From a virus, in IMG/VR virus record IMGVR_UViG_3300020465_000064, positions 1 through 30,199 of that record: a stretch of 30,199 nucleotides of DNA; one strand, 5' to 3'. The translations under genes were made by a program, and so were the position numbers. The first letter of the stretch is position 1. Every line of letters begins with the position of its first letter. The notes under the pieces were generated by a model. It worked only from the letters and a program-made list of their open reading frames with translations. It searched no databases and was not told the origin of the DNA. Shown here piece after piece: positions 3,512-23,300 of this stretch.

Positions 3512-3514
3512 ATT

Positions 3515-3538
3515 TTTGCACGGTTGATAAAGGACACC
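3515..3538 (-). promoter_or_regulatory. leftward leader element, copy 1
   Basis: Minus-strand reading GGTGTCC then TTTATCAACCGTGCAAA, followed by two more bases and the ATG of the GP88-like gene. One of 15 copies that head leftward units; probably the promoter of the 3511-to-1 operon. It is preceded by a T-tract and hairpin (3541-3560) although no leftward gene lies upstream. Confidence 0.75.
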
Positions 3539-7579: not shown

Positions 7580-7595
7580 TGAGCAGTAGCTGCTT

Positions 7596-7619
7596 TTTGC
7601 ACAGCTGATAAGGGACACC
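7596..7619 (-). promoter_or_regulatory. leftward leader element, copy 2
   Basis: Minus strand GGTGTCC then CTTATCAGCTGTGCAAA, 16 nt before the ATG of 6971..7579. The added spacing shows the element is not tied to the start codon, which favours a promoter over a translation-only signal. Confidence 0.75.
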
Positions 7620-7700: not shown

Positions 7701-8249
7701 ATGGAATTAGTGCCACCTTTAGACAACCCGAAGAAAGAGCAACATATTTTGCTACAGATTGCAGAGCCTACAAAGGAGGAAGTGAAGTCTCCTTATGAAG
7801 AGTTATGTTCTAGCTTGACGTCTCTGGCTTCTTATGCCAAAGAATTGCAGACTCAGTCTCATTTGATTCATTTGAATTATGAAGCTGCTAATTTTTTAGA
7901 AGTACATCAGTTTTTAAAAGATCAGTATGAAGCTCACTTAGAACAATTTGATACATTGGCTGAATTAGTTCGAGCAATGGATCATCTTATGCCTATGTGT
8001 GACTGCGGATTAAGAGATAGTCTTCCTCAGAACTGCTTCCAAAGAGTATCTTCTTATGAGCCCAGGCAGCAGTTGAGTACTTATTATCAAAATCTTGAAG
8101 ATTTAGTTGATATGTCTCGCAAAGTTAATTGCATGGCAGAGCAGTGCGGGGAACTTGGTGTTTCTAATTACTTATCAGACTTGATGACAGATCTTAGTAA
8201 GTCTGCTTGGATGGTAAAAGCAACTTTAAGAAATTGTGCCTCAAGTTAA
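7701..8249 (+). CDS. Dps/ferritin-like protein, 182 aa
   Basis: The region at residues 50-95 matches the Dps core: HLNYEAANFLEVHQF aligns with E. coli HWNMRGANFIAVHEM, and FDTLAEL with LDTMAER. The ferroxidase ligands H57, H69, D84 and E88 have the same spacing as H51, H63, D78 and E82 of E. coli Dps; the position of D67 is K73, with D74 next to it. A C-terminal SAWMVKATL matches the conserved Trp helix. Dps forms 12-subunit cages that oxidise and store iron and protect DNA from peroxide. An unusual Cys-rich insert (MCDCGL...NC) follows the second helix. It starts 82 nt from the divergent leader element and is followed by a membrane protein gene. Confidence 0.8.
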   Translation: MELVPPLDNPKKEQHILLQIAEPTKEEVKSPYEELCSSLTSLASYAKELQTQSHLIHLNYEAANFLEVHQFLKDQYEAHLEQFDTLAELVRAMDHLMPMCDCGLRDSLPQNCFQRVSSYEPRQQLSTYYQNLEDLVDMSRKVNCMAEQCGELGVSNYLSDLMTDLSKSAWMVKATLRNCASS

Positions 8250-12778: not shown

Positions 12779-13237
12779 TTAAGCTGGTTGAGGCATTAAG
12801 TCAGGACTTAATGTTTGCTGGTTGGTAACATAGTCAACTGCTTTACGTTTCTCATCAAGAGACATCTGATGGACATCTTTAGTGAGCTGTTCAGCAGCAC
12901 GTTGCTCAGCGGTCAACTTATAGATGGCTTTGCCATACTTAAGCATTAGACCGTAAGTCTTAGTACCTGTCTTCTCGTTGATGACCACGTCATAAGGGTC
13001 TTCAACTCCTATTAGATCCAGTAAATGTTCAGACTTGAATCCAAGTTCGACACCAGATTCTCTACGGGCTTTACCCGCATGTCTATTGGTGACAAACATG
13101 AGTCTGAATCTAGACCAGTTGTTGCCGACTAAATAGTCAGCCTCCAATGGTCCCAGTTCTGCGTGACCGCATGGGATAACGTCAGTGAGTGTGCTCATAA
13201 GCAACAGGTAGGGTTTGAAACGAAGCAAGCCTTTCAT
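12779..13237 (-). CDS. hypothetical protein, 152 aa, first gene of leftward unit
   Basis: A soluble protein with a basic central segment (NNWSRFRLMFVTNRHAGKAR) and KTYGLMLKYGKAIYKLT further on, ending with a helical Lys/Asp-rich part. Not recognised. The start is taken at the ATG at 13235-13237 just after leader copy 3; a second ATG 13 codons later (MSTLTDVIPCG) is an equally good N terminus. It heads the long operon ending with the zinc-ribbon gene at 8369. Confidence 0.6.
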   Translation of the reverse strand: MKGLLRFKPYLLLMSTLTDVIPCGHAELGPLEADYLVGNNWSRFRLMFVTNRHAGKARRESGVELGFKSEHLLDLIGVEDPYDVVINEKTGTKTYGLMLKYGKAIYKLTAEQRAAEQLTKDVHQMSLDEKRKAVDYVTNQQTLSPDLMPQPA

Positions 13238-13245
13238 GCTATGTT

Positions 13246-13270
13246 TTTGCACAGTTGATAAAGGCCTGTA
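13246..13270 (-). promoter_or_regulatory. leftward leader element, copy 3 (degenerate 5' half)
   Basis: TATCAACTGTGCAAA is exact, but the GTGTCC half is replaced by TACAGGCC. It heads the 13237-to-8369 unit. No hairpin precedes it; an ACTAACAT repeat (plus strand 13273-13280) lies there instead. Confidence 0.65.
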
Positions 13271-13287
13271 CTACTAACATTTAGAAT

Positions 13288-13301
13288 GCGTATATTGCAT
13301 G
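13288..13301 (+). promoter_or_regulatory. candidate rightward promoter, TATATTGCATG type
   Basis: GCGTATATTGCATG lies about 17 nt before the ATG at 13318. Similar A/T-rich cores with following GTG/ATG occur at the same distance before 20338 and 26527. Three sites only, so weak. Confidence 0.3.
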
Positions 13302-13317
13302 TATTGATAGGATTGAC

Positions 13318-13917
13318 ATGGCTGGCAAGTTCGGAATGTTAGGAGATTGGGGCGGTCAATTGCAGCGTGGGCAAAAACATATGCATGGAAAGCATATACA
13401 GTCATTGAAAGATAGAGGGGATTGGAGGATTAAAGGAGTAATCTCTCAAGCTCAAGCGGCAGATACCGAAGATAAGAGAGAGTTGATATCTAATATTCTT
13501 GAAAGCACATTAGGTCGTAAAGGCTTCCAGCGTAAAACCTTTGGAGGCAAAGTTATGCCTGGTTTTAGTGCGGAAGCTTTAAAGCCTATTGATTACACTC
13601 CTGAGATGAAACTCAGGGATAAAAATGCTATCAAGATGATGGCAACCAGTGAGGTTGGTTCTAAAAAATACCAGAGAGGATCGGAGACCTTACAACAATC
13701 TCTTGGAGAAATGAAAAAGCGTGTAGGTCCAGGACCTAAAGCTTTTGTTGAAGGTGTATTAGCTGGTACTGATCAATTGGATCGTGTAGCACAAGTTACT
13801 GGTGGTGGTGCTCTTATATATGGTGGAGCTCAAGCTTTATCAGCTTTAACTCAGCAGATAGAGGCCGTCCTTGAATACCAGAAGGAAGGAGATGAAACCA
13901 AGCAGTCTAGGTCTTAA
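13318..13917 (+). CDS. virion-like hypothetical protein, 199 aa
   Basis: A basic, Gly/Gln/Lys-rich protein starting MAGKFGMLGDWGGQLQRGQK, with a hydrophobic Gly/Ala segment (VTGGGALIYGGAQALSALTQ, about residues 160-180) near the end. The composition resembles the proteins of the rightward block from 20338, so I think it is a structural or ejection protein encoded away from the main block. It runs rightward opposite the leader element at 13246. Confidence 0.65.
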   Translation: MAGKFGMLGDWGGQLQRGQKHMHGKHIQSLKDRGDWRIKGVISQAQAADTEDKRELISNILESTLGRKGFQRKTFGGKVMPGFSAEALKPIDYTPEMKLRDKNAIKMMATSEVGSKKYQRGSETLQQSLGEMKKRVGPGPKAFVEGVLAGTDQLDRVAQVTGGGALIYGGAQALSALTQQIEAVLEYQKEGDETKQSRS

Positions 13918-13919
13918 TT

Positions 13920-14123
13920 ATGAGTAGATATAGTGGAGATCTCTTTGATATAGACCTAAACGAAGAGATTAGTGAACCTGATCTTAGAAGTAAGATGCGT
14001 TTCAGGATGGATAAGATGATCCCTAGTTTTGATCAAGCATTTAATGAAATGGCTCCTGAGAATAGTGAGCCAATGTATAGTCAAAGTGGATCATACCAAC
14101 CTGAAGTAGCTTACGGAGCTTAG
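13920..14123 (+). CDS. hypothetical protein, 67 aa
   Basis: An acidic N terminus (GDLFDIDLNEEISEPDL), a basic middle (RSKMRFRMDKM) and a Tyr/Ser/Gln tail. It starts 2 nt after the preceding stop, so it is co-expressed with it. Its stop overlaps the stop of the leftward gene by 4 bp. Role unknown. Confidence 0.6.
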   Translation: MSRYSGDLFDIDLNEEISEPDLRSKMRFRMDKMIPSFDQAFNEMAPENSEPMYSQSGSYQPEVAYGA

Positions 14124-14332
14124 ATGTCGCATTCGTAGGAGATATCTCTGGAATACATAGCGTCTTCCGCCGCATCTAGTTCTATCTGATTCTGATCTTC
14201 TACCCATACCCAGTAGGCTTTTCGGGTGAGATCTTTATTGATAGCTGATTTCCATCGGTCAGTAGTGTAAACAGGATGTTGTCCCCACTCACCGTATTGG
14301 GAAATCAATTGATGGATAGGATTAATTGGCAT
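14120..14332 (-). CDS. hypothetical protein, 70 aa
   Basis: Starts MPINPIHQLISQYGEWGQHP and has Trp/Tyr-rich and acidic segments (KAYWVWVEDQNQIELDAAED). The start ATG overlaps the 3' end of 14322..14696 by 11 bp; the longer open frame lies inside that gene. Last gene of the 15424 unit. Unknown function. Confidence 0.6.
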   Translation of the reverse strand: MPINPIHQLISQYGEWGQHPVYTTDRWKSAINKDLTRKAYWVWVEDQNQIELDAAEDAMYSRDISYECDI

Positions 14333-14696
14333 CAGAGGCTGTCCGAATGACTTTATCGAGGTGTAATTGATGGTCTTGAACATAGCAAGCGATCCCACTA
14401 AGAAGGTTTGTGAATTGTTTCTTAGTGTGTTGAGCTTGTTCCAGTTCTTCTCCAGCAAATACGTACTTATCACTGAATCGTACCGCATAATGCTCAGGTT
14501 TCAACTCGATTCTGTTTAAACAGTGGAAGACTATATCTAGAGCTTTGTCTAGGTCGTCCCATTTAGCGAGTTGAGCTTTTGCTTCAGCTGGTGTTAGTGA
14601 AGGGAGAGGACATTCGTCCAACTTCCCTTTAATTGGTTTGAAGAGGAGTCGTTGTAACTCCTCCTCTGATTTGTTGGCGGTAGAAATGATGGTCAT
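14322..14696 (-). CDS. hypothetical protein, 124 aa
   Basis: A helical protein: a Glu/Lys-rich start (NKSEEELQRLLFKPIKGK), a LTPAEAKAQLAKWDDLDKAL helix and a CLNRIELKPEHYAVRFSD strand region. Coupled upstream by an ATGA overlap. No domain recognised. Confidence 0.65.
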   Translation of the reverse strand: MTIISTANKSEEELQRLLFKPIKGKLDECPLPSLTPAEAKAQLAKWDDLDKALDIVFHCLNRIELKPEHYAVRFSDKYVFAGEELEQAQHTKKQFTNLLSGIACYVQDHQLHLDKVIRTASDAN

Positions 14697-14836
14697 ACAT
14701 CCTTCTCCGTCATATTGTTGACCATAAAGTCAAAGTCCTTGTCAGATTTCTCTTGGTTGTAGAAATCTTGTAGTGCTGCTTCCCGTTCATCGATGTCAAT
14801 CAATTCGCCAGGAAGATTTTTGAATTCTTTGATCAT
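14693..14836 (-). CDS. small acidic hypothetical protein, 47 aa
   Basis: Encodes MIKEFKNLPGELIDIDEREA and continues helical to FMVNNMTEKDV. It fills the gap between 14696 and 14839: the start is 2 nt after the upstream stop and the stop makes an ATGA with the next gene. No function known. Confidence 0.65.
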   Translation of the reverse strand: MIKEFKNLPGELIDIDEREAALQDFYNQEKSDKDFDFMVNNMTEKDV

Positions 14837-14838
14837 GA

Positions 14839-15036
14839 TTATTCAAGGAGAGAATCAGGTCCACCTTCCTCCCAGAGTCTTTCTCTCTCAGCCTTAATAG
14901 CTGGAGAGCACTGTTCGAAAGGTGTATTGGACTGAGTGAGTTCATGTTCTTCATCACTGAGAACATAGTCTTCTTCATAGACATTGGTCACTGTGTGAGT
15001 ACCAATCTGAAGAGTTTTATGGGGATTAATGTTCAT
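14839..15036 (-). CDS. small acidic hypothetical protein, 65 aa
   Basis: An N-terminal strand pair (KTLQIGTHTVTNVYEED) followed by acidic helix segments (LSDEEHELTQ, AIKAERERLWEEG). The ATG at 15034-15036 overlaps the upstream stop by 11 bp. Unrecognised. Confidence 0.6.
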   Translation of the reverse strand: MNINPHKTLQIGTHTVTNVYEEDYVLSDEEHELTQSNTPFEQCSPAIKAERERLWEEGGPDSLLE

Positions 15037-15424
15037 CTTCTGGGATGTCGATGATGTTTGGTTCTCCCCAAGCAGGTTCAGGGCAAGTAGGACTTGGCTC
15101 AGTGGAACAAGCATTGTATTCTTCAGTAGTAGTAATCACTTGCATTAAGTCATCGAAACGAGGACCTAATACATGAGGTTGTTTGCTCATTAAAGATTTA
15201 ATGAAACTAGAAGAAGGATCTTCCCCTTTAGCAACTAAAAGGACAGCCAGAGTATGAGCTATACCAGCTAGATCTGGACTGCCATGCTGAACCAAGATCG
15301 AAGCAATCTCTTTGGTCTGATCGAGCGTTAAAGGAAGGACTATATCGCCTTTCTTCAGAGCTCTTTCAGCTGAATTCATGATTGCCAGAGCGAAATGATC
15401 GGGATTCATGTGGTTTGAAGCCAT
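15026..15424 (-). CDS. hypothetical protein, 132 aa, first gene of leftward unit
   Basis: A helical N-terminal domain (HFALAIMNSAERALKKGDIV, then DQTKEIASILVQHG, then GIAHTLAVLLVAKGEDPSS) followed by a Pro/Glu-rich tail. The ATG directly abuts a perfect copy of the leader element, which fixes the start. It heads a five-gene unit ending at 14120. Confidence 0.7.
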   Translation of the reverse strand: MASNHMNPDHFALAIMNSAERALKKGDIVLPLTLDQTKEIASILVQHGSPDLAGIAHTLAVLLVAKGEDPSSSFIKSLMSKQPHVLGPRFDDLMQVITTTEEYNACSTEPSPTCPEPAWGEPNIIDIPEDEH

Positions 15425-15448
15425 TTTGCACAGTTGATAGAGGACACT
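15425..15448 (-). promoter_or_regulatory. leftward leader element, copy 4
   Basis: GTGTCC, spacer, TATCAACTGTGCAAA with the ATG immediately following. Directly preceded by the T-tract of the terminator for 15481..15930. Confidence 0.75.
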
Positions 15449-15473
15449 AAAAAAGCCCCGAAGGGTCGAGGCT
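15449..15473 (-). terminator. terminator of 15481..15930
   Basis: AGCCTCGA-CCCT-TCGGGGCT, an 8-bp stem with one G-T pair, followed by six T on the minus strand. Confidence 0.8.
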
Positions 15474-15480
15474 AATCTTA

Positions 15481-15930
15481 TTACTCAATAGAGATGATGT
15501 AACGAAACTCGTACTGGCCGCCCAACATAGCTGCATTAGCAGGTAGTTCGGGTAGAGGAAGTGGTTCAGGGTCGTCTGATTCCTTGGCAAATATAAGGTC
15601 ATCATCATAATCGGCATTACCACCATCTAGGCTGATCCATTTATCTTCAATACGATTGTCATCCTTTACTGGACCTAGGTTTATATCTAGGAGCTCGGGA
15701 TTGAGAAATCGAAAGTATGGAAATGTTAACTGGGTAGGTTTAGCCCATGTATACCAATGAAGAATTCCTGGACATCTCGGATTGAATTTAAAGAATAAGT
15801 CTCGGATGTCCTTATGTGGGTCTACAACTTCGGGAGGAAATACGTTACTCATCTCATCTAAAACTTCTCCTAAGAAGAAGAATTTAGGCTTAAGAGTATA
15901 TTTGTTGAAGGTGATGGTTTCTGTTTCCAT
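15481..15930 (-). CDS. hypothetical protein, 149 aa, single-gene cassette
   Basis: An alpha/beta protein starting METETITFNKYTLKPKFFFL, with a PRCPGILHWYTWAKPTQLTF centre and an acidic C-terminal part (DDDLIFAKESDDPEPLPLP). No known family. It stands alone between its own leader variant and its own terminator. Confidence 0.7.
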   Translation of the reverse strand: METETITFNKYTLKPKFFFLGEVLDEMSNVFPPEVVDPHKDIRDLFFKFNPRCPGILHWYTWAKPTQLTFPYFRFLNPELLDINLGPVKDDNRIEDKWISLDGGNADYDDDLIFAKESDDPEPLPLPELPANAAMLGGQYEFRYIISIE

Positions 15931-15954
15931 GCTGACCTGTTGATATAGGACAAT
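15931..15954 (-). promoter_or_regulatory. leftward leader element, copy 5 (3' variant)
   Basis: TTGTCC then TATATCAAC are kept, but the last part reads AGGTCAGC before the ATG instead of TGTGCAAA. This suggests that the conserved core ends near ATCAAC and that the rest is a separate leader element. Confidence 0.65.
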
Positions 15955-15975
15955 AAAAAAGCCCCAAGAGGGGCT
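15955..15975 (-). terminator. terminator of 15982..16365
   Basis: AGCCCC-TCTT-GGGGCT stem, 6 bp, followed by six T. Confidence 0.8.
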
Positions 15976-15981
15976 ATTGAA

Positions 15982-16365
15982 TCAAGGGTTTAAAAGGTAA
16001 GTATCTGGGTCATCACCATAGAATTTGTCATGAGCCAAGTCGTCGGCGTACTCTATCCATTCAGGGAATATTAAATGGGCGTAAGTAACAACTATGGTTG
16101 TGATGACAACTCTTGGATCGAAGGTCTGCCAATTAGGAACTGAACTTAAGATTTCACTAATTGATACAGTTTCTATATGACCTTTATCCAAGGGATTGAA
16201 TAACCGAAGAGGTTTATCAAAGTGAACTGCTAGACAGACATCTCTAATACGTTCTATCTTGGCCCATTCGGTTGGGGAGAATCGGGAGTTCTCGCCTTGA
16301 ATATTAATAGAGGGATGTTTAAAGAACTCTTCTAGAAACTCCTCGTCTGAGAGTGGTTGATCCAT
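15982..16365 (-). CDS. hypothetical protein, 127 aa, single-gene cassette
   Basis: Starts MDQPLSDEEFLEEFFKHP, with a mostly helical, acidic sequence and a C-terminal VVITTIVVTYAHLIFPEW stretch. The frame reads through to 16419, but that would cross the terminator hairpin of the neighbouring gene, so I take the ATG at 16363-16365. No family recognised. Confidence 0.65.
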   Translation of the reverse strand: MDQPLSDEEFLEEFFKHPSINIQGENSRFSPTEWAKIERIRDVCLAVHFDKPLRLFNPLDKGHIETVSISEILSSVPNWQTFDPRVVITTIVVTYAHLIFPEWIEYADDLAHDKFYGDDPDTYLLNP

Positions 16366-16385
16366 ACGAAATGAAGGAGGACAGT
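16366..16385 (-). promoter_or_regulatory. leftward leader element, copy 6 (most degenerate)
   Basis: Only CTGTCC and a TTCA remnant remain between the T-tract of the previous terminator and the ATG. Recognised mostly by position and the T-tract boundary. Confidence 0.4.
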
Positions 16386-16417
16386 AAAAAAGCCCACTCA
16401 GTCGAAACCAAGTGGGC
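16386..16417 (-). terminator. terminator of 16428..17030
   Basis: GCCCACT/AGTGGGC, a 7-bp stem with a 12-nt loop, followed by six T. Confidence 0.8.
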
Positions 16418-16427
16418 ATAAGGGTAT

Positions 16428-17030
16428 TTACTGTTTACGGTCTAAGCGATCAAAAGCAGTGATTACCTTAGATGGTGGAAAACCAAATCCCTTACGGGTT
16501 CTTGCCTTCCCATTCTCATCTAGTAATGGCTCGTAACTTGAAGTACCGTCTTCACGGGTCACCTTACGAGTTATAGGTACGTCAGTAACTTCTGATCTCT
16601 TCGCAGACCATTTCCAGTAGAGCCTGACAACAATGTGTTCGTTATTCTGAGCAAGCTCGAACAACTCGGATCCAATAGTAGATCCAGTCTTGTCGTCATC
16701 CCAAGCTGTGAACCAAGTTTCTTGGACAACAACTTTGTCAAACGTGCCGTCGCCTAAAGCGATGTCGGCAGATTGAACAACAGGGAATTTAAAGCCATTA
16801 GGAACTACATCTCCTGATTTATATGTCATCTCTAAGACATTATTAACTAGCCCAACAGTCATGTTATTGGCGTTAGTCCTAGTTAAGTCAACTTCAGACT
16901 CTGCAAGTTTAGAATCTGCAGACTCACGAAGCTTATCCTGCCAAGGCATGAGTAAGTCTTTAATAAGCTGTGGCTTATTGATGTTGTTGAAATCGGAATA
17001 GGTGTAGTCCAACTTAGTGGCATTTTCCAT
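16428..17030 (-). CDS. hypothetical protein, 200 aa, single-gene cassette
   Basis: A soluble mixed protein, MENATKLDYTYSDFNNINKP, with strand-rich regions (FDKVVVQETWFTAWDDD, EHIVVRLYWKWSAKR) and a basic C-terminal part with KGFGFPPSKVITAFDRLDRK. Not recognised. The ATG is 33 nt after its leader element; that leader has no Shine-Dalgarno sequence. Confidence 0.65.
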   Translation of the reverse strand: MENATKLDYTYSDFNNINKPQLIKDLLMPWQDKLRESADSKLAESEVDLTRTNANNMTVGLVNNVLEMTYKSGDVVPNGFKFPVVQSADIALGDGTFDKVVVQETWFTAWDDDKTGSTIGSELFELAQNNEHIVVRLYWKWSAKRSEVTDVPITRKVTREDGTSSYEPLLDENGKARTRKGFGFPPSKVITAFDRLDRKQ

Positions 17031-17063
17031 GTGGAGTAAACCAGCCTTTCGACTGGGCGAGAT

Positions 17064-17087
17064 TTTGCACAGCTGATGCTGTACACC
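17064..17087 (-). promoter_or_regulatory. leftward leader element, copy 7
   Basis: GGTGTACAG, then CATCAGCTGTGCAAA, followed by 33 nt of leader before the ATG of 16428..17030. The long leader argues that this is a transcription signal. Confidence 0.7.
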
Positions 17088-17089
17088 AG

Positions 17090-17119
17090 AAAAGTCCCAC
17101 CCCGCAAGCGGAGTGAGAC
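17090..17119 (-). terminator. terminator of 17130..17441
   Basis: An 11-bp stem with three G-T pairs (GTCTCACTCCG/CGGGGTGGGAC), loop CTTG, followed by TTTTC. Confidence 0.7.
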
Positions 17120-17129
17120 ATCGGGTTAT

Positions 17130-17441
17130 TCAGTTAAGTTCAATAAACGTCTTATAAAGACGCCTAATGAGATGAATAGGACCTCTCAATAACTCCTTAA
17201 CCTCATAGATGACGGTTTGGAGTTTGTTATACAGGTCTCGTTTGTAATCTGCCCACGTAAAGTCACGAGTTTTCCACTCTAGGTTTAAAACATCAAGATC
17301 ATCGGCTAACCGATTGGCATGAGTTTTCAGGATTCTGACGTCGGCTTGTAATGCCACTCTCTCTGTCCATAGTTCATCTCGAGACCAAGTTTTACCAGTG
17401 TCTGGATTGATCTTGGTGAACTTCTTAGATTTGCTAATCAT
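17130..17441 (-). CDS. hypothetical coiled-coil protein, 103 aa, single-gene cassette
   Basis: Basic N terminus MISKSKKFTKINPDTGKTWS, a coiled-coil-like middle (LQADVRILKTHANRLADDL) and a C-terminal helix (HLIRRLYKTFIELN). Its ATG abuts leader copy 8. No membrane span. Function unknown. Confidence 0.7.
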   Translation of the reverse strand: MISKSKKFTKINPDTGKTWSRDELWTERVALQADVRILKTHANRLADDLDVLNLEWKTRDFTWADYKRDLYNKLQTVIYEVKELLRGPIHLIRRLYKTFIELN

Positions 17442-17465
17442 TTTGCACAGTTGATAGTTGACACC
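17442..17465 (-). promoter_or_regulatory. leftward leader element, copy 8
   Basis: GGTGTC, spacer AAC, TATCAACTGTGCAAA with the ATG of 17130..17441 immediately after. Confidence 0.75.
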
Positions 17466-17533
17466 ACAAAATCCCTACTCCGACTGTGCAACGAAGCAGG
17501 GATGATGGATGTCCACAGTTGATACAGGACACT
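17466..17533 (-). ncRNA. candidate small RNA cassette with loop complementary to the leader element
   Basis: This unit has a leader copy (17511-17533) and a terminator-like hairpin (17471-17503, then TTTT) but no recognisable gene between them. The hairpin is a 12-bp stem, with two G-T pairs, and a 9-nt loop. On the minus strand the loop is TTGCACAGT, the exact complement of ACTGTGCAA that lies right before the ATG of eight cassettes. The stem is of the same type as the terminator at 17757-17790, whose loop is only TTT; the difference is an insert of GCACAG. If transcribed, the loop could pair with the 5' end of cassette mRNAs. A 13-codon frame from the GTG inside the leader (product MDIHHPCFVAQSE) is an alternative reading, or the unit may be the remnant of a lost gene. 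Confidence 0.5.
17511..17533 (-). promoter_or_regulatory. leftward leader element, copy 9
   Basis: AGTGTCC, spacer, TATCAACTGTG, then GACATCC where other copies have CAAAATG. It heads the gene-less unit at 17466-17510 and shows that the conserved core extends through CTGTG. Confidence 0.7.
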
Positions 17534-17567
17534 AAAAAAGCCCCTAACTTCAAAACGAAGCAGGGGC
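17534..17567 (-). terminator. terminator of 17574..17732
   Basis: GCCCCT/AGGGGC stem extended inward by CTTC/GAAG with a small internal bulge, followed by six T. Confidence 0.8.
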
Positions 17568-17573
17568 TGTGAG

Positions 17574-17732
17574 TTAAGCTATCTTTCTAGCGTTTCTTAA
17601 GTCGACGTAATCAACTCGTTGACTACCAACCAAATGCCTGAGCAGGTCATACTCGGCAAGAGCTTGGATGGTATCGCTGTGATATTGGAGAGGTTGGTCA
17701 TCCATGAAGATCATGATTGGTTTGGTTTCCAT
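17574..17732 (-). CDS. small hypothetical protein, 52 aa, single-gene cassette
   Basis: Encodes METKPIMIFMDDQPLQYHSD then a helix (TIQALAEYDLLRHL) and a basic end (DLRNARKIA). The start is fixed by leader copy 10, which abuts the ATG, and the gene is followed by its own terminator. A rightward frame over the same bases has neither signal and looks like a shadow. It is possibly a small strand-helix protein; function unknown. Confidence 0.75.
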   Translation of the reverse strand: METKPIMIFMDDQPLQYHSDTIQALAEYDLLRHLVGSQRVDYVDLRNARKIA

Positions 17733-17756
17733 TTTGCACAGGTGATATGGGACACT
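17733..17756 (-). promoter_or_regulatory. leftward leader element, copy 10
   Basis: AGTGTCC, spacer, TATCACCTGTGCAAA, ATG immediately following. Confidence 0.75.
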
Positions 17757-17790
17757 AAAAAAGCCCCTAACTCCGAAACGAAGCAGGGGC
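17757..17790 (-). terminator. terminator of 17798..18190
   Basis: GCCCCT/AGGGGC stem with inner CTTCG/CGGAG pairing and a TTT loop, followed by six T. Confidence 0.8.
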
Positions 17791-17797
17791 GTTGGTG

Positions 17798-18190
17798 TTA
17801 AGAGAATGTAACGACAGGAGTGCAGTGCGGATTATCAAGAGCTAGAGCCCAAGATTGATAAGTTCGAGTGACTGTCAGACACCAGTCGTGGTAACTGATG
17901 TAATCCTTCCACTCACACTCGTAATCACCCACATGAGTAGCACCTTTCTCTGCTTCCATCATCTTGTCATAGAGACCTGTCTCGGTGTCTCGCATCTTTG
18001 CGATCTCGGATTTCATGTGATCCAGGATAACTTGATTGATGATTATGCGACCTTGAGCCTGCTTATGAGGGCGGTAAGGGGCAAACATTTGATGTCTAGC
18101 CCAAGAATTACCAAGGTCAGATAGGAAGAAGAAAGTAGTCTCTTCGGTCTCATTGTCTACTTCTACGTAGGCTTTGAAGTCGATTCCCAT
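17798..18190 (-). CDS. hypothetical protein, 130 aa, single-gene cassette
   Basis: MGIDFKAYVEVDNETEETTF begins a strand-rich N-terminal part; a helix (LDHMKSEIAKMRDTETGLYD) and a Trp/Cys-containing C terminus (WKDYISYHDWCLTVTRTYQS) follow. No known motif. The start is defined by the abutting leader element. Confidence 0.7.
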   Translation of the reverse strand: MGIDFKAYVEVDNETEETTFFFLSDLGNSWARHQMFAPYRPHKQAQGRIIINQVILDHMKSEIAKMRDTETGLYDKMMEAEKGATHVGDYECEWKDYISYHDWCLTVTRTYQSWALALDNPHCTPVVTFS

Positions 18191-18214
18191 TTTGCACAGT
18201 TGATGTAGGACACT
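18191..18214 (-). promoter_or_regulatory. leftward leader element, copy 11
   Basis: AGTGTCC, spacer, CATCAACTGTGCAAA, ATG immediately following. Confidence 0.75.
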
Positions 18215-18248
18215 AAAAAAGCCCCTAACTCCTAAGAGGAGCAGGGGA
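18215..18248 (-). terminator. terminator of 18225..18713
   Basis: CCCCT/AGGGG and CTCCT/AGGAG stacked stems with a small internal loop, followed by six T. The stop codon of the gene lies inside the stem. Confidence 0.75.
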
Positions 18249-18713
18249 CTTAATGCGATGAGGAACTCTTTCCTCTACTACCCAGTGGTCTTCCTTTCTC
18301 AGAAGACTCAAGTCAAACTGAGCCTCTAGACAAGTGAAAGGTTTCTGGCTATCACGCCATGATGAGAAGAGATCTGCATCTTCCCCATTCATGACAGGAA
18401 ACCATACATACTCAGACTCTCTCCAGTCTGTCAACCTAGTGAGGTAACAGGGAGTTATTGGTCCCCAAGGTATCTTGGTCATAACCAATTCAGCATCCTT
18501 GAAAGACTGGATAGACTCTTGCCAAGGATGATCTAGGTGTGCTTCTCGAATGAAGACATTGTCTACGACTTCAACAATGGAGTGACCTATGCATCGATGC
18601 ATGTTAGGGCTCCACTGCTCGTAGATATCACAAGCTTCTTGCGGTGTAGGACATTCGGCTATTAGATATTGGCCAAAGTCACCACACATAGTAAGAAGGT
18701 AAGTGGTAGTCAT
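18225..18713 (-). CDS. hypothetical protein, 162 aa, single-gene cassette
   Basis: An alpha/beta protein starting MTTTYLLTMCGDFGQYLIAE, followed by CPTPQEACDIYEQWSPNMHR and several Trp-rich strands. No active-site motif is evident. The abutting leader copy sets the start; the stop is buried in the terminator hairpin. Confidence 0.7.
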   Translation of the reverse strand: MTTTYLLTMCGDFGQYLIAECPTPQEACDIYEQWSPNMHRCIGHSIVEVVDNVFIREAHLDHPWQESIQSFKDAELVMTKIPWGPITPCYLTRLTDWRESEYVWFPVMNGEDADLFSSWRDSQKPFTCLEAQFDLSLLRKEDHWVVEERVPHRIKSPAPLRS

Positions 18714-18737
18714 TTTGCACAGTTGATATAAGACACT
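18714..18737 (-). promoter_or_regulatory. leftward leader element, copy 12
   Basis: AGTGTCT, spacer, TATCAACTGTGCAAA, ATG immediately following. Confidence 0.75.
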
Positions 18738-18773
18738 AAAAAAGCCCTACCGCATTCGAAAACGCAGCAGGGC
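18738..18773 (-). terminator. terminator of 18781..19029
   Basis: A stem of about 13 bp starting GCCCT/AGGGC with several G-T pairs, capped by a TTCG loop, followed by six T. Confidence 0.8.
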
Positions 18774-18780
18774 ATTGGGA

Positions 18781-19029
18781 TTAGGACTTGGCAGCAGCCG
18801 CAGCTTCTAACTCTGCCTGGTAATTGAGGGCGGCTTCACGCCTCTCCTCACGAGCTGACTGCTCGGATAGATACTTCTCGAAGGTAGCACCTAGACCTTT
18901 AGCAGCTCCAGCTTGGGTTTGACGAATCTTCTCGATAATGATCTCATCGATAGGACGTCCCTCCAACTTGGATTTGGCAGATAGACAGGCTGACCGAGCA
19001 ACCTTAAAGCGCAACAGTTGAGAAAACAT
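18781..19029 (-). CDS. small Ala-rich helical protein, 82 aa, single-gene cassette
   Basis: MFSQLLRFKVARSACLSAKS, then RPIDEIIIEKIRQTQAGAAK, and an Ala/Glu-rich C terminus (QAELEAAAAAKS). Probably a coiled coil. The frame is open to 19194, but the leader copy abuts the ATG at 19027-19029, so I use that start. Confidence 0.7.
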   Translation of the reverse strand: MFSQLLRFKVARSACLSAKSKLEGRPIDEIIIEKIRQTQAGAAKGLGATFEKYLSEQSAREERREAALNYQAELEAAAAAKS

Positions 19030-19053
19030 TTTGCACAGTTGATATAGAACACC
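19030..19053 (-). promoter_or_regulatory. leftward leader element, copy 13
   Basis: GGTGTTC, spacer, TATCAACTGTGCAAA, ATG immediately following. Confidence 0.75.
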
Positions 19054-19055
19054 AC

Positions 19056-19074
19056 AAAAGCCCCCGAAGGGGCT
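19056..19074 (-). terminator. terminator of 19088..19288
   Basis: AGCCCC-TTCG-GGGGCT, 6-bp stem with a TTCG loop, followed by TTTT. Confidence 0.8.
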
Positions 19075-19087
19075 CGCGGCTTGAGCG

Positions 19088-19288
19088 TTAGCGGCCAACG
19101 TAGTAACCTTCGTCACTACAGAATTTGACAAGGGCCTTGTGCTCAGGTAGATCTGAAGCTTGAAGGTACTCTGCGCTTGAGCATTGCAACGCAACCTTCG
19201 CGTCTAAACCTTGAATGGAGGCAATAACATTGTTAACTATCATGCTTACGCCAAATACGATGATGACGTTGCGTAGTGTAGTTGTCAT
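19088..19288 (-). CDS. small membrane-anchored or exported protein, 66 aa, single-gene cassette
   Basis: A hydrophobic N terminus (LRNVIIVFGVSMIVNNVIAS, residues 5-24) acts as a signal or anchor, and the rest is hydrophilic with two cysteines (C36 and C57) that could form a disulfide outside the membrane. The start is defined by the abutting leader copy. Function unknown. Confidence 0.7.
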   Translation of the reverse strand: MTTTLRNVIIVFGVSMIVNNVIASIQGLDAKVALQCSSAEYLQASDLPEHKALVKFCSDEGYYVGR

Positions 19289-19312
19289 TTTGCACAGTTG
19301 ATATAGAACACC
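19289..19312 (-). promoter_or_regulatory. leftward leader element, copy 14
   Basis: GGTGTTC, spacer, TATCAACTGTGCAAA, ATG immediately following. Confidence 0.75.
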
Positions 19313-19314
19313 AG

Positions 19315-19332
19315 AAAAGCCCCGAAGGGGCT
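19315..19332 (-). terminator. second terminator-like hairpin after the 19394..19540 unit
   Basis: AGCCCC-TTC-GGGGCT followed by TTTTC. It lies about 35 nt beyond the hairpin at 19369-19387, so this unit carries two hairpins in tandem. Confidence 0.7.
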
Positions 19333-19368
19333 AGAGCCTAGGACGTCCGAAGGAACTCTCCGGACCCG

Positions 19369-19387
19369 AAAGCCCCCTAAAGGGGGC
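19369..19387 (-). terminator. first terminator of 19394..19540
   Basis: GCCCCC-TTTA-GGGGGC, 6-bp G/C stem, followed by TTT, 7 nt after the stop codon. Confidence 0.75.
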
Positions 19388-19393
19388 GTCAAG

Positions 19394-19540
19394 CTAGAAG
19401 GGAATTACAGTGTTGAACTTTTCTAATGGACCTATCTCTATTGGATGCCACTCATCTGGGGCATTGCAATCAGAATTGTCAGTAAGAAGAATGTAAGTTC
19501 CATCATCATCTAAGAAGATGTGGTCAGTGATGAAATTCAT
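19394..19540 (-). CDS. small acidic hypothetical protein, 48 aa, first single-gene cassette
   Basis: MNFITDHIFLDDDGTYILLT, then DNSDCNAPDEWHPIEIG and LEKFNTVIPF. A small strand-rich acidic protein. It has the leader element directly before the ATG and two hairpins after the stop, so I accept it despite its size. It is the rightmost leftward gene. Confidence 0.75.
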   Translation of the reverse strand: MNFITDHIFLDDDGTYILLTDNSDCNAPDEWHPIEIGPLEKFNTVIPF

Positions 19541-19564
19541 TTTGCACAGTTGATGTAGATCACT
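19541..19564 (-). promoter_or_regulatory. leftward leader element, copy 15
   Basis: AGTGATC, spacer, CATCAACTGTGCAAA, ATG immediately following. There is no hairpin ahead of it; two direct ACTAACATC repeats lie there instead. Confidence 0.7.
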
Positions 19565-19581
19565 AACATCGAACTAACATC
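19562..19581. repeat. direct repeat ACTAACATC x2
   Basis: ACTAACATC at 19562-19570 and again at 19573-19581, next to leader copy 15. A related ACTAACAT lies at 13273-13280 beside copy 3, and CTAACATC at 19952-19959. Confidence 0.5.
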
Positions 19582-20310
19582 AAACGCAGCAGTTGGTGGT
19601 AGGTGTGGGTGGTTATAAAATATTGCAACGTAGTAAGAAGTACGAGCACAAAATGTAGCGAACGAAGTGAGCGAAATGCATGAGCGAGGCGAACACTGAG
19701 CGAGCAAAGCGAGCGAATCCTTATCCAGAAAAGGAGTAATTTAGCATCTGTCTTTAGATAAGACGCCCCGCAGCGCGGTCGCTTGGAGCATTCGAGAAAC
19801 GCATCGTAGACGCGTATGTGTGTGGGATAACTGTTAAATATACAGGCGTAGTGGGATAGAGCATGCGAAAAACTGAAGGGAGGGGTGGGCTACGTGCCAG
19901 AGCGTCGCGTTATTAAATAGCGTGGAGATTGTGGCCGCTGTTAAACATCAGCTAACATCGGCAGCCTACGCATTAACTTCGGCTACTAATAGGTAGCTAT
20001 CGCCAGGCATACGTCAACGCAGGCAGCGCTGTCGCTTTCGCGTTAACAACGAACGAAGCAGGTAACTAAGCGAGGACGGGACGTCCGAGCGGCGCGGCAA
20101 CGTACCACCTTCTTTTTTTGTTTGAGGACTTTTCGAATGTGCGGGGGGTGTTTAATGTATGCCGAGCGACGCAACAAAAATCGCTCAGGTCCCGCGAGGC
20201 CTTTTAGGTACAAACTTTCGCTTCTTGAGGATTAATAGTGAACAAATTTTTACTAAAAAATTATTTATCCCTATTCGCGCGAGGCGAAGCCTTTTGAGAC
20301 CCCCGATAGA
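19582..20310. other. long non-coding intergenic region between the leftward and rightward arms
   Basis: No convincing gene in about 730 bp. It holds a purine-rich stretch of imperfect GAGCGA/GCGAAC repeats at about 19658-19720, a GGACG-GGA-CGTCC hairpin near 20075, a T-tract at 20111-20117, an AATTTTT/AAAAATT hairpin near 20244-20262 and TTCGC/GCGAA shortly after. It looks more G/C-rich than the flanking genes. A 95-codon frame from 20159 runs into the next gene and has an unlikely composition, so I do not call it. Candidate roles: origin, packaging site, regulatory RNA or late control region. Confidence 0.5.
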
Positions 20311-20323
20311 CTGTATATATGTG
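20311..20323 (+). promoter_or_regulatory. candidate rightward promoter, TATATATGTG type
   Basis: CTGTATATATGTG lies about 15 nt before the GTG at 20338, matching sites before 13318 and 26527 in position and A/T core. Weak on its own. Confidence 0.35.
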
Positions 20324-20337
20324 TTTAGTAGACGACT

Positions 20338-23300
20338 GTGGCTGGTAGCGTTTGGGAACCTCATCATGGTGGTAACGAACCACCTAAAAATAAGCAAGGC
20401 AGACCGTGGGTTAGCGAAAGAAGTAGGTATGCAAATCCAGAATTAAGTACTTTTCAGAAGTGGTTTTCAGCTGTCAAGAAAGATCAAGCAAGATATCAGC
20501 AGAAAAATGCTCCTCAAGGCTTTGGTGCGACACAACAAAAGCCTCAAGGACCTCAAGATGCGGATAGTTTTGCCTTTGAAGCGATTAAAAGGGCCAAAAA
20601 CCCTCAACTCAATGTCAAAAAGAACCTCGTACAGCACAGATATATAAGTAATAAGAAGACACAAATTGCCAATATCAAAGATCAGGGCAGCAGGAACCTT
20701 AAAGAAGGTGAAATATTTACTAAAAACAATCCTTTGGTGCAGGAAAAGGCCGCACAGGATAAAAAATTAAATGAGAGCCTCCCTTCGGGAGTCGAAAGCA
20801 GGGCTGAGCAAATCTCAAACAGCCTTCAAAATCGGGTTACCAGTTCGGATCCGAAGCAAAGGGGCTGGGGTAACGTTGCTGCACAAGGTGGCTTAGTCGC
20901 AACGCAAAAGGTTAAGCAGGCTGCGCTCGCTCAGGCCGCGACTCCTGAAGCTGTAAGCCAAATAGCAGGTAAAAGTATCCCTGCAAATGTTGCTAAAGAG
21001 ATGCAAGAAATAATGAAGGCGGCTCCAACCCTCTCAGCACAGGATGCATATAGGTATGCGTTACGTTCTACTGAAAATCCTGAAGCTTCTGGTGACTTGC
21101 AAGGCTTAGGGGCTAAAGCCTATTTCGAAAAAATACGTAACCAGCAAGCAAAATTTGGCGATATTGCTCAAAAATTAGAAAATCTTCCTGAAAGAAGCCT
21201 TGTTACCGAGGCGGTTGGTGATGTAAACGTAGAAATTTCGCAGGAAGAGGTAAAACGCAGGCTTGTGGGTGAGTTCTTCAATGTCGATGGCACTCAAAAA
21301 ATACCTGTGACTCCTGCAAATGTTTTAGCGGTTTTGGAAGATAGGAATAAGTTTTCCGCTAGGGAAGCAGCTCAGATCAAGCAAAGTGATCTTCAGCCTT
21401 GGATGAGTGGTTATCTAAAGCAATCCACTAAAGAGGAGACAGAGCAAGTAGCACTTACGGAAGGAAAAGAGTCTACATATAAAGGTAAGCGCACAGCAGA
21501 GCTCAAAGAGAAAAAAGAGACAATAGACCCATTCATGATTCCCATGCTGATGTCTCCTGTCACAGAGACGGTGAATCTTGTAGATGCTAAGACAGGTTTA
21601 GGTGGACAAGGTGCTACATACCTAGAAGGGTTAAGCGTTAACAAGAAAGATCCTAGTCAACTCAGGAGGTTCCGTAAACTGGACGCCGGTAAGGTTAAAC
21701 TTGCAATGTTAAATCCTGCGTATGTTCTTCCAGATGAAATAGCAGGAACAAAATATAGACGTTATAACGATAACGAGAGTTCTGAGGGTATGTCTAAATA
21801 TGTAGGAGTACCTACAGAAGATCCTTTGCAGCAGGCAACCTTACCTCAGTTCGACCCTAATCGTCGCAGAGGAGCAGCAGGAAATATGACTCTAGGTCAA
21901 GCATTGACTCAAATACTGCTAGAAGGTAGAACCCCTATCAGAGACTTCGCTAAAGGAGAAGTTATAGAGGTTCAGGATGGAAAGAAGACAAGATACTTCC
22001 TTCCTGATCAGACAGCTTACGAACAAGGACTGATAGCAAGTGATAGTAACTGGAAGTTACAGGGTCCTAGGCAAGATCAATCCTATGCAGTTACTTCTGA
22101 TGATATTGGTCAGGTAGCTTCATCTTCCACGTCAACAGCCATACCTTGGAACAAATCTGGTGCAGTGGATCCAAAAGCAGCAATGTTCCCCACGTTTAGG
22201 ATGCCTACGCCTTTTAATTCTTCTAAAACTACTGAGAAAGTTTTTACTAGTCAGGGATACGTGCCAACCCCTCGTAATAGGGGATTAGATGAATTAGATG
22301 ATATAGAGCTAGGAGTAAGGGGTCAGCAAATGAGAGTTCGAAATCTGATAGATGCTTATATGCCTAACAGGATTGATGCTCAGACTCCAATCCCTACAGG
22401 ACTTGAATTATTTCCTCTTTACGGTTCAGCCGAAGGTGGAATGAGATCCTACAGGGTAGGTAACAGTTTTATGTACTCTAATGATGCTATGAGGGCTGTT
22501 AGCGATTTAATAGAGCAGGTTACTCGTTTAGATCCTAATATCGACGGTGCTTACAGACCATCAATTAATGAGCCTTTAGCTAGGGATGATTGGAGATTGA
22601 AAAAAATTCAAGGTATGGCTTTGTTAGATACAACACCTAAAGTTCTCGCGGATAAAAAATTATGGCCAAAAGAAGTATTAGATGTTTACGATCAGATGGA
22701 GTACGAGCTTAGAAAACGCAAGGCAGTCAATCCTAATTACAAAATGCCAGAAGCAGCCTTAGATTGGAGAAATAGCATGTTATTCGATCCCGGTGGAGTA
22801 GCAGGGTCTCAAGCTTTAAAAGGAAAAAAATTAGTTGATTATCCTTTAGGAATCTGGAGATCACCCAATGCTAAGAGTTTGCAAGACTTCCTTACAACTT
22901 TACCAGGAGGTGACTCTCCTCTACCTAAGTGGCAAGGACAGTGGGGAATGATTCAAAAGTTATTAAATGCGTCTGGTGGTATCATTCCTGACGAGTCTAA
23001 TATCCAATCAAGACTACCTGGTGTAGTTATGAGAGATAACTTTGGAAGTATGGGTGCGGAAGGTAGATCTTATGAGGACTTAGCTAAAGCTTTAGATATT
23101 CCACTGCAGGGTTTAAGTGGACAACAAAAAGAACGCTTGAAAGTTTTAGCTAGACAATTTGGTCCGCAGGCTCTTACATCGACTTCAGATCCTACTCCTA
23201 TCAATCCTTCCCTAACAGCAGAAGCAGTAGGAGCAATATCAGGAAATACAAATCCTCAGTCAGGAGCTGTAGATCCTCAAATGGCAGTGGGAGGATTGAA

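Follow-up and report, generated by a model that had tools for sequence, protein, structure and literature searches.

The hairpin at positions 17471-17503 on the minus strand of the analyzed window (the whole stretch of viral DNA, 30,199 nucleotides long) is, with a probability of about 0.6 as judged from sequence comparison, an ordinary intrinsic terminator belonging to an emptied cassette in a modular array of an S-EIV1-lineage phage. The match of its loop to the repeated element of the array is most likely a by-product, the partner of the loop being only hypothetical. The array that surrounds the hairpin is a more solid finding than the regulatory-RNA interpretation. The array and the features of the hairpin locus are listed below.

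15422-19563, minus strand: array of promoter-like element, small gene(s) and terminator
15447, 17086, 17464, 17532 (damaged), 17755, 18213, 18736, 19052, 19311 and 19563, minus strand: starts of the array element copies
17574-17732, minus strand: 52-aa gene of the preceding cassette (ortholog at 1402-1560 of the related contig L060)
17534-17568, minus strand: terminator of the upstream 52-aa cassette, with a 5-nt loop, sister of the hairpin at 17471-17503
17509-17532, minus strand: element copy of the emptied cassette, GTGTCCTGTATCAACTGTGGACAT, with a damaged 3' end (CAAAA in other copies)
17504-17513, minus strand: body of the emptied cassette, approximately 10 nt (approximately 133 nt in L060, 1621-1753, with no substantial reading frame)
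17471-17503, minus strand: terminator-type hairpin of 12 bp, ATCCCTGCTTCG-TTGCACAGT-CGGAGTAGGGAT, then TTTGTGG; identical in L060 (1754-1786)
17483-17491, minus strand: 9-nt loop TTGCACAGT, exact reverse complement of ACTGTGCAA, with a 6-nt insert GCACAG relative to sister terminators
17439-17464, minus strand: next element copy, GTGTCAACTATCAACTGTGCAAAATG, with its ACTGTGCAA at 17443-17451, 31 nt downstream of the loop
17130-17441, minus strand: 103-aa gene of the next cassette (ortholog at 1816-2121 of L060)

On the minus strand, the hairpin is preceded by AGTGTCCTGTATCAACTGTGGACATCCATC and followed by TTTGTGGTGTCAACTATCAACTGTGCAAAATG. Its folding energy is -16.9 to -18.3 kcal/mol, and the 55-nt stretch 17466-17520 folds with z = -3.3. 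The combination of a G+C-rich hairpin and a U run that characterizes intrinsic terminators is present, as a 12-bp stem and then TTTGTG; the U run is short, similar to TTTTGTG and TTTTCTG at other junctions. The preliminary description had given a 12-bp hairpin followed by TTTT; the stem length stands, and after such a stem just TTT is found. It had also likened the stem to that of a neighboring terminator with GCACAG added to the loop, and this was borne out: the sister terminator upstream of the 52-aa gene (about 17763-17790) reads CTTCG-TTT-CGG, whereas the hairpin reads CTTCG-TT-GCACAG-T-CGG. The loops of the remaining junction terminators are 3-5 nt long. The cassette is indeed gene-less, with no gene from the preceding element copy to the hairpin.

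The complementarity of the loop to ACTGTGCAA was confirmed over all 9 nt. The statement that ACTGTGCAA directly precedes the ATG needs correction, since one A intervenes between them. As for the eight cassettes in which the complement of the loop was said to stand before the ATG, seven of the eight CAAAATG starts carry it exactly, and the eighth reads CCTGTGCAA.

The window represents a cyanophage of the S-EIV1 lineage, most likely a marine one. The cyanophage assignment is based on the Photo_RC gene (photosynthetic reaction-centre, as in psbA) carried by a relative of the window, G011, and on the portal-like protein of another relative, G001, which shares 48.5% identity with its counterpart in Synechococcus phage S-EIV1, the sole match among phage records. 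At the DNA level, no match to phage records was found for this phage. The closest long relatives share roughly 83-93% DNA identity with the window across many kilobases, with G001 covering its right side and G011 and G012 its left side; the G001 and G011 contigs stop just outside the cassette array. The small minus-strand genes of the array (15.4 to 19.6 kb) have no assigned function, and between them lie a terminator hairpin, a T run and the repeat GTGTCC-TATATCAACTGTGCAAAATG. A tRNA search of the window found none, and the Rfam search gave no match above the gathering score in the window and none up to E = 1 in 13000-20400.

A region of ~700 bp without convincing genes (19600-20330) separates the minus-strand array from the structural genes on the plus strand; it is rich in GAGCGA/GCGAGC-type repeats and may be an origin or control region. 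In addition, a ferritin-like gene is located at 7701-8249 on the plus strand, and S-EIV1 also has an annotated DNA-binding ferritin-like protein.

The repeated element, termed a leader earlier, was aligned using copies from the window, L060, G011, G012 and G015, with a few chance matches included that slightly lowered the scores. The conserved parts of the 24-nt element are GTGTC, then 4-5 variable positions, then ATCAACTGTGCAAAA. Besides the array copies, the following copies were found.

13243-13260, minus strand: element copy without an upstream terminator, heading the 12779-13252 transcription unit
7593-7618, minus strand: element copy preceded by a terminator, at the head of the transcription unit of 6971 and below; at the same place in G011 and G012
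3513-3537, minus strand: element copy at the head of the GP88-family gene's transcription unit; at the same place in relatives, with the variant TATCATCTGTGCAAATG (also given as TATCATCTGTGCAAA) in G015-G017

Of the 14 minus-strand genes that start a transcription unit, 12 have the element upstream, against 0 of 35 internal genes (Fisher p ~1e-9). For this comparison, 49 minus-strand genes were hand-picked from mechanical ORFs, three start coordinates being approximate; a unit start was defined by an upstream gap of at least 34 nt (or an unknown one, for the first gene), and an internal gene by a smaller gap or overlap. The core is kept with the ATG immediately after it or up to 32 nt later, without a following ATG (L060 1602) and without a preceding terminator (13243). 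Because the element marks transcription-unit starts whatever the distance to the ATG, it looks like promoter DNA or another transcript-start signal rather than a ribosome-binding site, as far as position and repetition indicate. Two unit starts, 15930 and 16365, have no good element. The stretches 16365-16417 and 15902-15968 carry a terminator and GTCC with the element core missing or degenerate, and are possibly swap junctions.

The element does not look like a sigma-70 promoter in sequence: the stretch where the -10 hexamer would fall is variable among its copies, and the region contains 7 sigma-70-like sites versus 12.8 expected from shuffles. A search for sigma-70 region 4 in S-EIV1 and relatives found none with controls positive, in records that may be fragments. 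The search for a T7-type RNA polymerase in the same set gave no match; the control genomes were likewise unmatched, hence this result is uninformative. S-EIV1 (L053/L054, KJ410740.1) has its own repeated element, GTCC(C/T)(A/G)AGCATGACATTAAACTGCT, also written GTCC(C/T)(A/G)AGCATGAC.TTAAACTGCT, with seven copies, all on the minus strand (25919, 29169, 30513, 33602, 38809, 39528 and 43012), and none in five shuffled genomes. It sits a few tens of nucleotides before genes, farther from the ATG than the element of the window; it also appears promoter-like and differs from the latter in sequence. S-EIV1 additionally carries, on the minus strand at 40739-40787, 41449-41478, 43499 and 43793, two pairs of repeated leaders that look structured and closely precede start codons (CCCTGGGC.TCCATA...AAGTCCCAGG and CTGATCCGTCAAAGCGGGT...), with no Rfam match.

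A search of genome contigs with the cassette proteins detected a second phage sequence, L060 (NHEF01000002.1, 9,365 bases), which shows about 92-98% DNA identity to much of the window. This cyanophage contig was binned into a gammaproteobacterial metagenome assembly (TMED78) and carries genes of this phage. It is the only one among the relatives that covers the hairpin locus, and the same hairpin, which the preliminary description had proposed to seek in related phages, is present there: the stretch made up of hairpin, T run and next element agrees at 65 of 65 nt, so that loop and element are both unchanged. In the adjoining 103-aa gene, 25 of 306 aligned positions differ (8%). At this rate, 65 nt would stay unchanged with a probability of 0.004 and the loop with one of 0.46, hence the identity of the loop is uninformative by itself. 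Another nearby junction is conserved to a similar degree between the two sequences.

The cassette itself differs between the two phages. In L060, its upstream element has an intact core (TATATCAACTGTGCAAAAACGAG) with no ATG directly after it, and the longest frame of its body is ~28 codons between stops; the cassette folds no better than shuffles (z = -1.0), and no relatives of its body were found in phage records. In the window, an element copy does stand upstream of the hairpin, as had been described, in damaged form: it reads ACTGTGGACAT where ACTGTGCAAAA is expected, and the conserved CAAAA end is lost. Since the cassette of L060 is ~120 non-coding bases longer and its upstream element retains an intact core, the window copy is, on this comparison, an emptied cassette. 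Neither phage has a coding sequence in this cassette, and the window holds the shortened version. The L060 body would then be a decayed gene or else a non-coding RNA, of which a deletion left just the terminator in the window. A lost gene had been suggested earlier as an alternative, and the extra bases of L060 fit lost or decayed content; a non-coding RNA gene is weighed below as well.

No third sequence covering the hairpin locus was found in the following searches. An exact scan of viral contigs for the element gave nine matches, all in contexts unlike cassette junctions, and a degenerate scan matched only unrelated sequence and relatives with contigs that do not reach into the array. Of five matches to the hairpin core TTCGTTGCACAGTCGGA, none was in a comparable hairpin. 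Protein searches of viral contigs with the cassette genes and with the 1006-aa protein detected no relatives, and among 396 and 39 genomes near the L060 assembly, the sole match was the L060 assembly itself.

One strand of 30 kb is expected to contain ~1.9 antisense matches of 9 nt or more to some stretch of the 26-nt element, and the match as such is therefore unsurprising. The probability that a given 9-nt loop matches exactly is ~7e-5, and that of the 6-nt insert in a fixed register is 2e-4; apart from the loop, no antisense match to the element reaches 9 nt on the strand that bears the genes, either in the window or in L060. Allowing for ~15 junctions and for the post-hoc choice of the pattern, we estimate the chance of such a loop match at roughly 0.5-1%, which is suggestive, not decisive.

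Several observations argue for an ordinary terminator. The stem and tail match those of the sister terminators, the difference being a short loop insert; L060 keeps the hairpin and the next element at 65 of 65 nt while the flanking gene has diverged, and its cassette body holds no substantial frame; the element heads unit starts, and cassette swaps break in the terminator or the element; S-EIV1 also has a repeated minus-strand element of its own; and the emptied cassette has its own element damaged at the CAAAA end. The element would act as a phage-specific promoter, with transcription starting at or near its 3' end and yielding leaderless or near-leaderless mRNA, and the hairpin would halt transcripts ahead of the next element, as the sister terminators presumably do. 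The cassette would have lost its content, from the ~133 non-coding nt of the relative to ~10 nt in the window, and the GCACAG insert may stem from local template switching at TT/T microhomology, which copied it in inverted form from the element lying 31 nt away, or may have arisen by chance. Against an ordinary terminator stands the fact that the 9-nt match fills the loop exactly (7e-5 for a given loop) and recurs unchanged in the second phage. Despite the emptying of the cassette, the hairpin was kept and could itself be useful, and the two unit starts without a good element count on the same side.

The function proposed in the preliminary description was that of a phage small RNA: a short RNA ending in the hairpin, whose loop UUGCACAGU would pair with ACUGUGCAA where the cassette mRNAs begin, beside the start codon, exerting group control of translation or decay. 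The exact 9-nt complementarity is displayed in a stable hairpin loop, the predicted duplex has ~-12 kcal/mol, the array holds many identical targets, and the hairpin is unchanged in L060, where the cassette is also non-coding. Beyond the complementarity, this function gained no support, as the element resembles promoter DNA and the cassette's own element copy is damaged. If the element behaves as promoter DNA, the mRNAs may start downstream of ACTGTGCAA, which makes its inclusion in them doubtful; with the CAAAA end of the element lost, transcription of the window cassette is doubtful too, and the RNA may not be made. Moreover, a transcript begun upstream of an intact ACTGTGCAA would include the complement of its own loop, the z-value of the L060 cassette gives no sign of structure beyond shuffles, and the region has no Rfam match. 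We therefore regard a small RNA of this kind as unlikely. Its broader form, in which the terminator of the emptied cassette has turned into a small RNA (or a cis pseudoknot) whose loop recognizes the shared start element of all shuffling cassettes, is improbable to the same degree. So is the possibility that the L060 cassette is a genuine non-coding RNA gene of ~170 nt, the window being a deletion derivative and the loop match secondary. The intact element core, the ~133 nt without a substantial frame and the terminator of L060 agree with such a gene, but its folding energy is no better than that of shuffles, its body is without relatives in phage records, and a decayed small gene would look alike.

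A cis-acting element is quite unlikely. Here, the loop would pair in read-through transcripts with the element 31 nt downstream (pseudoknot), hiding the start of the 103-aa gene, which would be translated only from transcripts of its own promoter. T4 genes such as lysozyme have early read-through transcripts with hidden start sites, which provides a precedent, and the loop and the next element lie on the same strand, 31 nt apart, in one block identical in L060. However, nested folding of the complete stem has its minimum in the terminator form and leaves the leader and AUG ~70% unpaired, as with random 6-nt inserts, and no comparable loop exists at other junctions. A fold in which the read-through RNA forms a hairpin that hides the leader seemed appealing for a shortened sequence and was rejected, as nested folding with the complete stem did not favor it. 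A decoy, which the preliminary description had offered as an alternative, also gained no support. A DNA decoy or extra half-site appears very unlikely: the inverted ACTGTGCAA, whose centre is 40 bp upstream of that of the next element, would bind the same putative phage factor and modulate the next promoter. The inverted copy is exact over 9 bp and close to the next element, but it covers 9 of roughly 15 conserved core positions, the GTGTC block is wholly absent, and the copy is unique to this junction.

Returning to the array in which this probable terminator lies, the comparison of the window with L060 revealed cassette replacement, gain and loss. L060 has one cassette (142 aa) in place of two cassettes of the window (162 aa and 130 aa), is without the 15982-16365 cassette and has an additional 72-aa gene; the breakpoints lie in or beside terminators and elements. 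Judging by these breakpoints, the element and hairpin are junctions at which cassettes were swapped, as are the promoter early stem-loops (PeSLs) of T4-type phages. According to PMC4503421, PeSLs are composite promoter-terminator motifs (Arbiol et al. 2010, Comeau et al. 2014) in which the breakpoints of gene gain, loss and swapping lie. As in that account, a repeated terminator stem-loop and a promoter-like element stand between small genes here, most array junctions have a stem-loop followed by a T run, and the shuffling breakpoints fall in the motif. The array would thus work like a PeSL array, but two features that this account gives for PeSLs are absent: the phage belongs to the S-EIV1 lineage and is not T4-type, and the element is unlike a host-type sigma-70 early promoter. 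In addition, the terminator and element are fused here within ~30 nt, and the element mostly runs into the ATG.

Other repeat systems are more distant. The SAS/ESAS sequences of Cluster K mycobacteriophages are short conserved repeats before some start codons, some with upstream inverted repeats; SAS is the 13-bp GGGATAGGAGCCC, with a proposed role in translation initiation (PMC3203893). Both systems have short repeats just before the starts of a gene subset and inverted repeats nearby, but the element of the window is another sequence, its core is kept up to 32 nt from the ATG, and it tracks transcription-unit starts rather than start codons. Intergenic repeats of halovirus HF2 carry promoters, shown with reporters (PMC8707807); these are likewise repeated intergenic sequences within one virus lineage, whereas HF2 is an archaeal virus with its own 58-bp and 29-bp repeats. 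Phage-encoded small regulatory RNAs, as treated in the review PMC12197685, are the kind of molecule proposed earlier for the hairpin, which is known here from its sequence.

If the hairpin is an ordinary terminator, the main gain is an array that shuffles cassettes in the manner of PeSLs in a phage that is not T4-type. Its promoter-like element has apparently not been described before and comes from a lineage, S-EIV1, about which little is known; the locus also exemplifies a cassette caught once its content had gone. If the small RNA were real, a single phage RNA would regulate any gene landing in the array, each arriving with the same start element, and one RNA would thus control an open-ended set of accessory genes.
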